DNA of 64,000 bases, from NCBI RefSeq assembly GCF_030064165.1, contig NZ_CP125947.1, positions 4,154,001 to 4,218,000 of the forward strand. The letters are read 5' to 3'. The position numbers and the translations under genes were made by a program. Numbering within the stretch: the stretch's first letter is position 1; every line of letters starts with the position of its first letter. Source of the stretch: Comamonas resistens. Lineage in GTDB: Bacteria; Pseudomonadota; Gammaproteobacteria; Burkholderiales; Burkholderiaceae_C. This document shows positions 23,722 to 30,145 of this stretch, one piece after another. The notes below the pieces were generated by a model. That model did no database searches. It worked only from the letters and a program-made list of their open reading frames with translations, and was not told the DNA's origin.

Positions 23722-23892
23722 GAAGAACTTTCTGAGTTATGTAGACGCACTAAAAAGGCTAGCCACAACCATTGACTATCTGCATCTTAGTGACATTCAC
23801 TATGTATCAACGTATGGAGCCATTGAGATAGCCCCCTGAATCTCCGGACACGGTCCATCGCTTATCTTCGAGATAAGCATAGGACTGTGCGT

Positions 23893-24279
23893 ATGACTAG
23901 GCATACAGAAACGATTGAGGTCATCACCCGAGACCAGCGCAGGCGGCGCTGGTCGGCTGCCGAGAAGGCTGCCTTGGTTCGCAAAACTTATGAGTCAGGC
24001 ATGAGCGTGTCGCTCGTGGCCCGCCAGGAAGGCGTCTCTGCCAGCCTGCTGTTCACTTGGCGGCGGCTGGAGCGCGAAGGCGCGCTGGTGGCTGTCGGTG
24101 CAGGCGAGGCCGTTGTGCCGGCATCGGAGCTGGCAGCCGCCCGTGCCGAGATCGCCAAGCTGCAGCGCGTGTTGGGCAAGAAGACCTTGGAGAACGAGAT
24201 ACTCAAGGAAGCCGTGGAGATCGCTGCAGCAAAAAAATGGATTGCGCGCTCGCCCTTGTTGCCCGGGGACGACCAATGA
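23893..24279 (+). CDS. IS transposase OrfA (helix-turn-helix, leucine zipper)
   Basis: 128 residues. The N-terminal HTH of the HTH_Tnp_1 type ([20 protein letters not shown] ... [19 protein letters not shown]) is followed by a coiled-coil ([20 protein letters not shown]). It binds the IS ends. AGGA lies 8 nt before the ATG at 23893; a GTG two codons earlier is less well placed. An A7 run at 24231-24237 reads GCA AAA AAA in this frame, a canonical -1 slippery site. The stop overlaps the orfB start by ATGA. Confidence 0.92.
24231..24237 (+). promoter_or_regulatory. A7 slippery heptamer for -1 frameshifting in the IS
   Basis: In the orfA frame the run is A AAA AAA, the optimal heptamer. The -1 frame is open from well upstream and continues into orfB, so a shift here would give the OrfAB fusion transposase typical of IS3 elements. 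Confidence 0.8.
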
Positions 24280-25139
24280 AGTCGGTCTGCTCGGTGCTGG
24301 GCGTGGCGCGCTCGAATCTGCATGTGCGGCATCACCGCCCTGGCCACTGGCAGGACAGCCGCAGAGGCCGCACCCCGGCCCAGGATGAGCTCTTGCTGGC
24401 CGACCTGCGGCGCCACATTGCCGAGTTGCCCAGCTATGGCTATCGCCGCGCCGGTGCGCTGCTCAATCGAGAGCGACGTTCACAAGGTCAACAGGCGCTG
24501 AACCACAAGCGCATCTACCGGGTCATGGCGCGGCATCGACTGCTGTTGCCCAAGGCGCCCAAGCGACGGCATTCGAGCCGCATTCACGATGGCCAGGTCA
24601 GTGTGCCGATGAGCAACATGCGCTGGTGCTCTGACGGCTTTGAGATCAAGTGCGATTCTGGCGAGACGGTCACAGCCACCTTCGCCAAGGACTGCTGCGA
24701 CCGGGAGATCCTGGCCTGGCGGGCTTGGGAGGGCAAGGGACTTGCGGGAGAGCCTGTGCGCGACATGCTGGTGGAAGCCGTGGAGCGGCGCTTTGGCACG
24801 GTTGAAGCCGTGCCCCTGGAGCGTGAATTGGAGTTCCTCACCGACAACGGCAGCGCCTACATCGCGCACGAGACGCGTGGCATTGCTAGATCACTGGGCC
24901 TGAAGCCGATCAACACGCCCGTGTGTAGCCCGCAGAGCAACGGCATGGCCGAGAGCTTCGTGAACACCTTCAAGCGCGACTACATGAGCCGTATGGACCT
25001 GCGTGACGCGCCGACGGTGCTGGCGCAATTGCCGGGTGCGTTCGAGCACTTCAACGAGATCCACCCGCATTCGAGTTTGAAGATGATGTCGCCCAGGGAG
25101 TTCCGACGACGGCAGAATCACCCCGCCCATCAGGGCTAA
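24276..25139 (+). CDS. IS transposase OrfB (DDE integrase core)
   Basis: 287 residues from the ATG overlapping the orfA stop. The rve integrase core has the DDE residues in [10 protein letters not shown] (first D), FLTDNGSAY (second D) and [15 protein letters not shown] (E). The phrase [13 protein letters not shown] is close to IS2 OrfB. The reading frame looks intact, so the element could still move. The active form is probably the frameshifted OrfAB; initiation at this ATG would give OrfB alone. Confidence 0.93.
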
Positions 25140-28731: not shown

Positions 28732-29052
28732 GGGCCCATTATCGATGAGGGTCCAGCCAAGAAAACCGGGCCATTGCGGGAACCTCGAGAGATTCCGAAA
28801 ATTCCTAGAGACCAAACGATCACCTAAGCTAACACTCAGGGTTCTGGTCAGCCCTCCTGTCCCAGCAGCCCACTCCAATGAAATTGGAGGATTGGCTAGC
28901 GTAGCGCCAAACATAATTCAGGTTGAGATGCATCAAATGCTAGGGCATTGGGCAGGCAGCCCTGCCAAGTCCCCGTCAGCCGCTGTAAAAATACGTTGCA
29001 GTGCAACATTTACACTGACAGTTCCCTCTGTGAAGCACCTACAAAAATCCGG

Positions 29053-29080
29053 GGAACTTTGCCTTTAGCACTCTCTCTAA
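29053..29080 (+). promoter_or_regulatory. Sigma-E-type promoter for rpoH
   Basis: -35 GGAACTT at 29053-29059 and -10 TCTAA at 29076-29080, 16 bp apart. This fits the extracytoplasmic sigma-E pattern (GGAACTT-N15-17-TCNNA). The expected start of transcription is about 29086-29088, giving a leader of about 36 nt to the ATG at 29123. Confidence 0.72.
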
Positions 29081-29091
29081 CGGAGTGCTAA
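29065..29091. promoter_or_regulatory. CIRCE operator (HrcA site) at rpoH
   Basis: TTAGCACTC (29065-29073), nine bases, GAGTGCTAA (29083-29091): an exact match to the CIRCE consensus bound by the heat-shock repressor HrcA. It covers the -10 element and the likely start point of the sigma-E-type promoter. Confidence 0.95.
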
Positions 29092-29122
29092 TATGAAGAT
29101 CATGGAAGAAAGGAAAGCTGCA

Positions 29123-30067
29123 ATGAAATCTGCCACCGGCTCCATTGCTACAGCCTTGGCCCCCACGAACCCTTGGGCTCTGGTGCCACCGCTTGGCAAC
29201 CTGGATGCCTATATCTCGGCTGCAAACCGTCTGCCAATGCTCACCCAGGAGGAAGAGCAGGAGTACGCGCGCAAGCTCAAGGAACACAATGATCTGGACG
29301 CCGCCGGGCGTCTGGTGATGTCTCACCTGCGTCTGGTCGTATCCATTTCCCGCCAGTACCTGGGCTATGGCCTGCCCCATGGCGACCTGATCCAGGAAGG
29401 CAATGTGGGCCTGATGAAGGCCGTCAAGCGCTTCGACCCCGACCAGGGCGTGCGCCTGGTGAGCTACGCCATGCACTGGATCAAGGCCGAGATCCACGAA
29501 TACATTCTGAAGAACTGGCGCATGGTCAAGGTCGCCACGACCAAGGCCCAGCGCAAGCTGTTCTTCAATCTGCGCTCCATGAAGCATGACATGAAGTCCA
29601 ACGCCGCCATGGCTGACGACGATATGGTCATGCGCGAGACACTGACCGCCCACGAGATCGACGCCATGGCTGAAAAGCTCAACGTCAAGCGTGAGGAAGT
29701 CATCGAGATGGAAACCCGCCTGTCGGGTGGCGATGTGCTGCTGGACCCCTCGCCCAGCGATGATGGCGAGCAGGCCTATGGCCCCATTGCCTATCTGGCC
29801 GACGCCAACCACGAGCCTACAGCCATGATCGAATCGCGCCAGCGCGATCAGTTGGCCACCGATGGCCTGTCCATGGCCCTCGAAGGCCTGGATGATCGCA
29901 GCCGCCGTATCGTGGAAGAGCGCTGGCTCAAGGTCAACGACGATGGTTCCGGCGGCATGACACTGCATGAGCTGGCAGCCGAATATGGCGTGAGCGCCGA
30001 GCGCATTCGCCAGATCGAAGTGGCTGCCATGAAAAAGATGAAAAAAGCGCTGGCCGAGTTCGCGTAA
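29123..30067 (+). CDS. rpoH: RNA polymerase heat-shock sigma factor RpoH (sigma-32)
   Basis: 314 residues from the ATG at 29123. It shows region 2 (SHLRLVVSISRQYLGYGLP, DLIQEGNVGLMKAVKRFDP), the RpoH box (QRKLFFNLR) and region 4 (LHELAAEYGVSAERIRQIE). These distinguish it from RpoD. It directs transcription of chaperones and proteases. I prefer 29123 because AAAGGA lies at proper spacing; ATGs at 29093 and 29102 fall almost on the predicted transcription start and lack sites. Control is by the sigma-E-type promoter and the CIRCE operator upstream. A terminator follows at 30117. Confidence 0.95.
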   Translation: MKSATGSIATALAPTNPWALVPPLGNLDAYISAANRLPMLTQEEEQEYARKLKEHNDLDAAGRLVMSHLRLVVSISRQYLGYGLPHGDLIQEGNVGLMKAVKRFDPDQGVRLVSYAMHWIKAEIHEYILKNWRMVKVATTKAQRKLFFNLRSMKHDMKSNAAMADDDMVMRETLTAHEIDAMAEKLNVKREEVIEMETRLSGGDVLLDPSPSDDGEQAYGPIAYLADANHEPTAMIESRQRDQLATDGLSMALEGLDDRSRRIVEERWLKVNDDGSGGMTLHELAAEYGVSAERIRQIEVAAMKKMKKALAEFA

Positions 30068-30116
30068 ACGCCAGCTTGCGCATACGTCGCTAAAAAAGCT
30101 GAAATGCTGAACCACG

Positions 30117-30145
30117 AACCCGGATAATTTCCGGGTTTTTTATTT
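30117..30145 (+). terminator. Rho-independent terminator of rpoH
   Basis: 7-bp stem (30117-30123 with 30131-30137), 7-nt loop, followed by TTTT A TTTT. Confidence 0.9.

Follow-up and report, generated by a model that had tools for sequence, protein, structure and literature searches.

A CIRCE operator overlapping a sigma-E-type promoter, with a proposed sigma-70 extended -10 inside it, upstream of rpoH in Comamonas resistens

Heat-shock control is usually taught as a pair of alternatives, i.e., sigma-32 as in Escherichia coli or HrcA and its operator CIRCE as in Bacillus subtilis. How, then, is rpoH, the gene for sigma-32, controlled in a bacterium that encodes both sigma-32 and HrcA? The question is raised by the rpoH locus of Comamonas resistens (contig NZ_CP125947.1, positions 4,154,001 to 4,218,000; this whole 64,000-nucleotide stretch of analysed DNA is referred to as the window, and positions are counted from its first letter). 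An earlier note on this DNA had placed a sigma-E-type promoter overlapped by a perfect CIRCE box upstream of rpoH, and had proposed that two heat-shock systems meet there at one promoter.

Operator and promoter elements upstream of rpoH

The product of rpoH (29123–30067) is assigned to sigma-32 by TIGR02392 (396.6 bits vs a cut-off of 323.1), NF005143 also scores above its cut-off, and the nearest named rpoH relatives of this gene are from Comamonas. The gene, its operator and promoter elements and the terminator-like site after it lie on the plus strand. The mechanical open reading frame begins at 29093; the start codon is most likely ATG 29123–29125, which is preceded by the ribosome-binding site AAAGGA (29109–29114) and is kept together with it in an alignment of Comamonas-type sequences. 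This ATG is favored because the frame from 29093 is broken in Comamonas composti, which has ATC at the position of the 29093 ATG plus one inserted base, and in C. kerstersii, which has one base fewer ahead of the conserved ATG 29123. The first ATG, being out of frame or non-ATG in these two species, was thus rejected as the start of rpoH, and the start codon implied by the end coordinate in the earlier note, 29123, agrees with the alignment.

The sigma-E-type promoter is read directly from the DNA. It consists of an exact -35, GGAACTT (29053–29059), and an exact -10, TCTAA (29076–29080), with a spacer of 16 bases, and the assignment of GGAACTT-N16-TCTAA (29053–29080) to the sigma-E type in the earlier note thus stands. 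Both expected transcription starts given here were placed by the usual distance from -10 to +1, which for sigma-E would give a start at 29086–29088. The CIRCE box, TTAGCACTC-N9-GAGTGCTAA with the loop TCTCTAACG, occupies 29065–29091, and TTAGCACTC-TCTCTAACG-GAGTGCTAA is as flawless as had been claimed, with 0 mismatches. The sigma-E-type -10 falls within the CIRCE loop, and the overlap of promoter and operator upstream of rpoH is confirmed in exact sequence and coordinates. With ≤3 mismatches allowed, CIRCE occurs once in the window vs 0.02 expected, and at two sites in the whole 5.3 Mb genome, both perfect, one before groES and one before rpoH. By its sequence, and with hrcA present in the genome, the box at rpoH is a predicted HrcA operator.

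The weight of the sigma-E string comes from its place and its conservation, not from its genome-wide frequency. Across the genome, GGAACTT-N16-TCTRA with ≤1 mismatch has 9 matches (2 exact) vs 40 for a reversed control pattern, and GGAACTT-N16-TCNNA has 3 exact matches vs 25 for the control; as genome-wide evidence the string was dropped, its counts being below control. The second exact match to GGAACTT-N16-TCTRA lies outside the window (L093:1501-1672, i.e., G000:C1:5195675 onward) and precedes a CCTCC-rich stretch that ends in a long inverted repeat and a T run, a candidate sigma-E-driven small RNA. Part of the L093 stretch is matched in 4 of 59 other family genomes, one of which (L352) has GGAACTT-N17-TCTAG upstream. 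The fold of the stretch is not unusual (z -1.2), and it matches no Rfam family at gathering score.

A further element is apparent at the right end of the operator. The right CIRCE arm plus three bases, TGCTAANAT, is nearly invariant at rpoH and not at groES; our interpretation is that the operator here incorporates an extended -10 for sigma-70. The proposed element, TG-C-TAATAT (29086–29094), comprises the end of the right arm and the three following bases, has TGn ahead of a TANNNT hexamer, and would place the sigma-70 start at 29100–29102. In the left arm, 18 bases before TAATAT, lies a weak -35-like TTAGCA (29065–29070, 4/6 to TTGACA), which we only infer to be a sigma-70 -35; its third base is G in 21/78 order genomes, giving TTGGCA or CTGGCA. 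A two-hexamer sigma-70 scan requiring 9/12 did not list the site, which by eye reaches 8/12, with 4/6 per hexamer. The operator and the two apparent promoters together take up 42 bases (29053–29094).

Both presumed regulators are encoded in the genome. HrcA is found at C1:948473-949456 (308.4 bits vs a cut-off of 197.2), and a single RpoE scores above the family cut-off (C1:1186984-1187553, L083; 257.8 bits vs 236.15 for TIGR02939), with seven further, weaker RpoE-family matches in the same genome. RpoE aligns nearly full length to structures of E. coli sigma-E (1OR7, 6JBQ, 2H27), and its DNA-reading stretch, MDCPxGTVRSRIFRAREAI, differs from that of E. coli sigma-E in one residue. There is no coding-strand GGAAC in the ~1.5 kb upstream of rpoE, and autoregulation from a GGAAC motif is thus not seen there; a sigma-E motif at rpoE itself is usual, not strictly required.

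As to the surroundings of the gene, an intrinsic-terminator-like site with a 9-pair stem and a T run follows rpoH at 30116–30138, and two such sites were found in the region vs 1.1 in shuffles. A short palindrome upstream of rpoH (28993–29009) has a T run on the minus strand and is not kept in related Comamonas. Farther away, overlapping open reading frames at 23887–25139 of the window resemble, by eye, an IS3-type transposase pair. No Rfam family reaches its gathering score across the window.

Conservation among near relatives and across the order

A scan of named genomes yielded at least 572 confirmed rpoH loci; the best 80 of these were used here, and 79 of them carry CIRCE (≤2 mismatches) ahead of rpoH. 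Of these 79 relatives, 72 also have a sigma-E motif under strict criteria, namely a GAAC core, no more than two mismatches to GGAACTT, and TCnnA at a spacing of 16 or 17. Its register, i.e., the distance in bases between the first base of the -35 and the first base of CIRCE, is 12 in 69 and 13 in three. The remaining seven include two with TCTAT and five with a weaker motif or none. Base by base, 78 distinct Comamonadaceae rows conserve the -35 as G65 G73 A77 A73 C72 T52 T39 and the -10 as T74 and C74, then A59 and A77. When nine Comamonas-type sequences are aligned, the bases ahead of GGGAACTT include a single, scattered invariant column; conservation as a block begins with GGGAACTT and continues across CIRCE as far as the start codon, and thus no other conserved promoter is in sight. 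Of 38 relatives searched genome-wide, 36 have two CIRCE sites (≤2 mismatches), one has three, and C. odontotermitis has a single site. Sorted by downstream gene, 31 loci have TC..A in the CIRCE loop at 10/13 rpoH sites vs 0/18 groES sites.

At the level of the order, rpoH was matched in 177/180 genomes, and 80 upstream regions, picked from the matches listed, represent 76 genera and 40 families, with f26 and f35 left out. The earlier note had named a search of the order's rpoH upstream regions for both motifs as a check, and the outcome is positive: CIRCE (≤4 mismatches) is found at rpoH in 78/80 genomes, and 48 of these 78, from 30 families, have a sigma-E motif no more than 40 bases ahead of it, vs 0.7 expected on the same strands. 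The register is 12 in four genomes (from the family of the window), 14 in four, 16 in 27 and 17 in eight; rarer values are 28–31 in four and 40 in one.

With the -35 register set blind to the -10, TCnnA is in place in 4/4 genomes at register 12, 4/6 at 14, 27/31 at 16 and 8/8 at 17, and in genomes without a -35 it is found at the register-16 place in 7/22. Because the last two bases of the CIRCE arm GCACTC supply the TC at registers 16 and 17, the A alone is informative there; this A is present in 27/31 register-16 genomes vs 20/47 of all others (p about 1e-4, shared ancestry ignored). The presumed sigma-E -10 thus moves with its -35 across registers. A chance overlap of two common motifs, for which the below-control counts of the sigma-E string would speak, is extremely improbable in the face of this blind-register result and of the recurrence in 72/79 Comamonadaceae and in 48/78 order genomes against 0.7 expected. 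The comparison shows that selection acts on the overlapping layout of predicted operator and sigma-E-type promoter. The earlier framing of this layout around Comamonadaceae was too narrow, as the layout is no peculiarity of that family and is found again among the order and class genomes sampled.

The bases that follow the right CIRCE arm bear on the proposed sigma-70 element. They form a NAT triplet at most rpoH sites, with A in 77 and T in 78 of the 78 distinct Comamonadaceae rows, and the T at 29094 is kept in 79/79 Comamonadaceae. In the order, groES was matched in 76 of the 80 genomes and 70 groES upstream regions were examined, 68 of them with CIRCE; T29, the T of the triplet, is present at 77/78 rpoH sites vs 7/68 groES operators of the same genomes. 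A28 is less specific (69/78 at rpoH vs 54/68 at groES). Among class genomes T29 is found at 34/37 rpoH sites. The proposed extended -10 keeps its position with respect to CIRCE, whatever the register of the sigma-E motif. Two other causes of the kept NAT were ruled out, namely a start codon, as the third base is G in only 46/78, and a CIRCE extended symmetrically on both sides, as the bases left of the operator at rpoH are unconserved and offer no mirror of the triplet.

Arm erosion is lopsided in the same direction. At rpoH in the order set, the left T1/A2 is changed in 23/78 sites and the mirrored right T24/A25 in 0/78, vs 6/68 on the left and 9/68 on the right at groES (p about 3e-5, shared ancestry ignored). 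Among changes in the right arm at rpoH, A26 to G, which alters the third -10 base, is the commonest (8/78). The extra conserved bases at groES are on the left side, T at -3 in 55/68 and A at -1 in 59/68, which would fit a -10 attached to the opposite arm there.

C. odontotermitis provides a natural test of the separate elements. Its rpoH upstream region (L032:2461-2502) has no CIRCE (8 mismatches at best), and the species retains hrcA and the CIRCE at groES. GGAACTC-N17-TCTCA is found there together with TG-T-TACTAT, which lies at the very spacing seen in the window, 36 bases counted from the first base of the -35, so that both presumed promoters appear to be kept without the operator. The retained -10 rests on this one species, because among 19 CIRCE-less sequences of the order and class five have a sigma-E-like motif and 0 of these five have an extended -10 behind it.

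These data can be set against two simpler accounts of the locus. According to the first, only the sigma-E promoter and CIRCE are real, and the AT after CIRCE is, say, a leader element or an HrcA contact; the weak sigma-70 hexamers and the frequency of A28 at groES (54/68) suit it. It is nonetheless unlikely, since T29 is specific to rpoH, is fixed to CIRCE as the sigma-E motif slides, is missing from the mirrored left flank and is kept with TGnTA in the CIRCE-less species. According to the second, only CIRCE and a sigma-70-type promoter matter, and the bases resembling sigma-E elements serve sigma-70 or another ECF sigma factor. This would agree with the seven weaker RpoE-family matches and with families f7 and f9, in which 10/10 sampled genomes have CIRCE (≤4 mismatches) and T29 and no strict sigma-E motif. 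The conservation of GGAAC and TC..A, which shift jointly across registers, the sigma-E type of the motif and the match of RpoE region 4 to that of E. coli render this second account quite improbable, and we prefer an operator combined with both promoters.

CIRCE at rpoH and hrcA across the class

The sampled class, which we take to be GTDB Gammaproteobacteria with the betaproteobacteria included, gave an rpoH match in 55/58 genomes, our own among them. The 54 other genomes were compared with one copy each, a second G245 copy at a contig edge being dropped. CIRCE (≤5 mismatches) is present at rpoH in 37/54 genomes, and 24 of these 37 have a sigma-E motif no more than 40 bases ahead of the operator, with register 16 in 19.

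The operator is linked to the repressor gene. CIRCE is found at rpoH in 35/39 class genomes with hrcA (G271, whose hrcA match is a fragment below cut-off, scored as present) vs 2/15 without (Fisher p about 2e-7, which overstates independence, the genomes being related). The two CIRCE-like sites in hrcA-less genomes have 1 and 5 mismatches, and four hrcA-bearing genomes have no CIRCE at rpoH. In the order, a search for hrcA in the two CIRCE-less genomes (G092 and G152) gave no match.

Two individual loci are recorded here as observations in their own right. Under a sigma-E-like rpoH promoter in G152 (L196) lies a palindrome, CAGGCACT-N9-AGTGCCTG, which resembles a drifted CIRCE; it is perhaps a CIRCE remnant or the site of another repressor. 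In G226 (L333), a second GAGTGCTAAAAT is located directly upstream of the rpoH CIRCE, which also ends in GAGTGCTAAAAT, and the second copy is apparently a partial tandem duplication of the right arm plus AAT.

HrcA might have little effect at rpoH if sigma-32 were controlled mainly post-transcriptionally. In E. coli the level of sigma-32 depends chiefly on translation of its mRNA and on turnover of the protein, and one Comamonas species lacks the operator at rpoH yet has hrcA. Throughout the sampled class, however, the CIRCE arms at rpoH are conserved and their presence follows that of hrcA, and a minor role of HrcA is therefore improbable.

A probable composite operator-promoter for rpoH

Our preferred reading, to which we assign a probability of roughly three in four, is that rpoH has a composite operator-promoter at which HrcA would block both a sigma-70 and a sigma-E promoter. 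From the arrangement of the elements we infer HrcA binding, repression, the use of the two sigma factors and their start sites. HrcA on CIRCE would cover both -10 elements and keep rpoH low in unstressed cells, most simply by steric exclusion of both RNA polymerases. HrcA loses activity once GroEL is occupied by unfolded protein, as established for the B. subtilis protein. Occupied GroEL would thus switch HrcA off and clear the operator, upon which rpoH would be transcribed always by sigma-70 and more strongly by sigma-E under envelope stress, i.e., the promoter logic would be "(sigma-70 or sigma-E) and not HrcA". Because CIRCE marks only groES and rpoH in this genome, GroEL supply would act as a common input that governs how much GroEL and how much sigma-32 is made. 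Because the operator seems to hold a sigma-70 -10, control by HrcA would extend to housekeeping transcription and not only to that under envelope stress. The earlier proposal of two heat-shock systems at one promoter holds insofar as the shared bases are conserved and both regulators are encoded; it had overlooked the sigma-70 extended -10.

HrcA and CIRCE are the operator and repressor family known from groESL and hrcA-grpE-dnaKJ in B. subtilis and many other bacteria, and the groES site occurs here too. In contrast to the classic systems, the target here is the gene of the heat-shock sigma factor, and the right arm, not the left, is apparently joined to a -10. In E. coli, rpoH P3 is a sigma-E-dependent promoter, and the same sigma class feeds rpoH as here. 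To our knowledge E. coli has no HrcA and no CIRCE, and the hrcA family search gave no match in the E. coli control. A 2003 study by Permina and Gelfand reportedly treats heat-shock regulons in beta- and gammaproteobacteria, and CIRCE at rpoH in these groups may already be in print there.

A perfect predicted CIRCE at -51 of rpoH is described for Geobacter sulfurreducens (PMC545781), which belongs to another proteobacterial group, and the available passages of that paper mention no overlapping sigma-E or sigma-70 promoter. In the accessible parts of the open literature, we came across no paper that places CIRCE or HrcA upstream of rpoH in a beta- or gammaproteobacterium, which is weak evidence since most subscription papers lie outside it. 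Nor did we find there a description of a sigma-E promoter overlapping CIRCE at rpoH or of a sigma-70 -10 within the operator. A term search in the accessible text of Leyn 2016 found neither HrcA nor rpoH, and the passages available from PMC3135505, PMC3224663 and PMC2194791 contain nothing on the rpoH promoter. For Variovorax WDL1, the available passages report that rpoH, hrcA and several chaperone genes are raised together and that grpE is lowered (PMC5911999), which is compatible with the model and not a test of it. CIRCE before rpoH has thus already been published for Geobacter; its overlap with a sigma-E promoter and the proposed internal sigma-70 -10 may be new.

Across the hrcA-bearing part of the class, the composite operator-promoter may represent one compact, old rpoH module, in which the operator would hold the sigma-70 extended -10 and overlap a sigma-E promoter. 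The latter would have slid to several registers, even taking the TC of its -10 from the CIRCE arm. The HrcA-free control by sigma-E seen at rpoH in E. coli would in that case be what was left once the repressor had been lost; for this wider proposal we regard the odds as even. The operator and promoter bases are separable, which would permit precise single-base tests. If HrcA sits on the rpoH promoters of most class members that keep hrcA, the two heat-shock systems would form one cascade, in which GroEL supply would set sigma-32 synthesis, envelope stress would act as a second input, and E. coli would be the exception.
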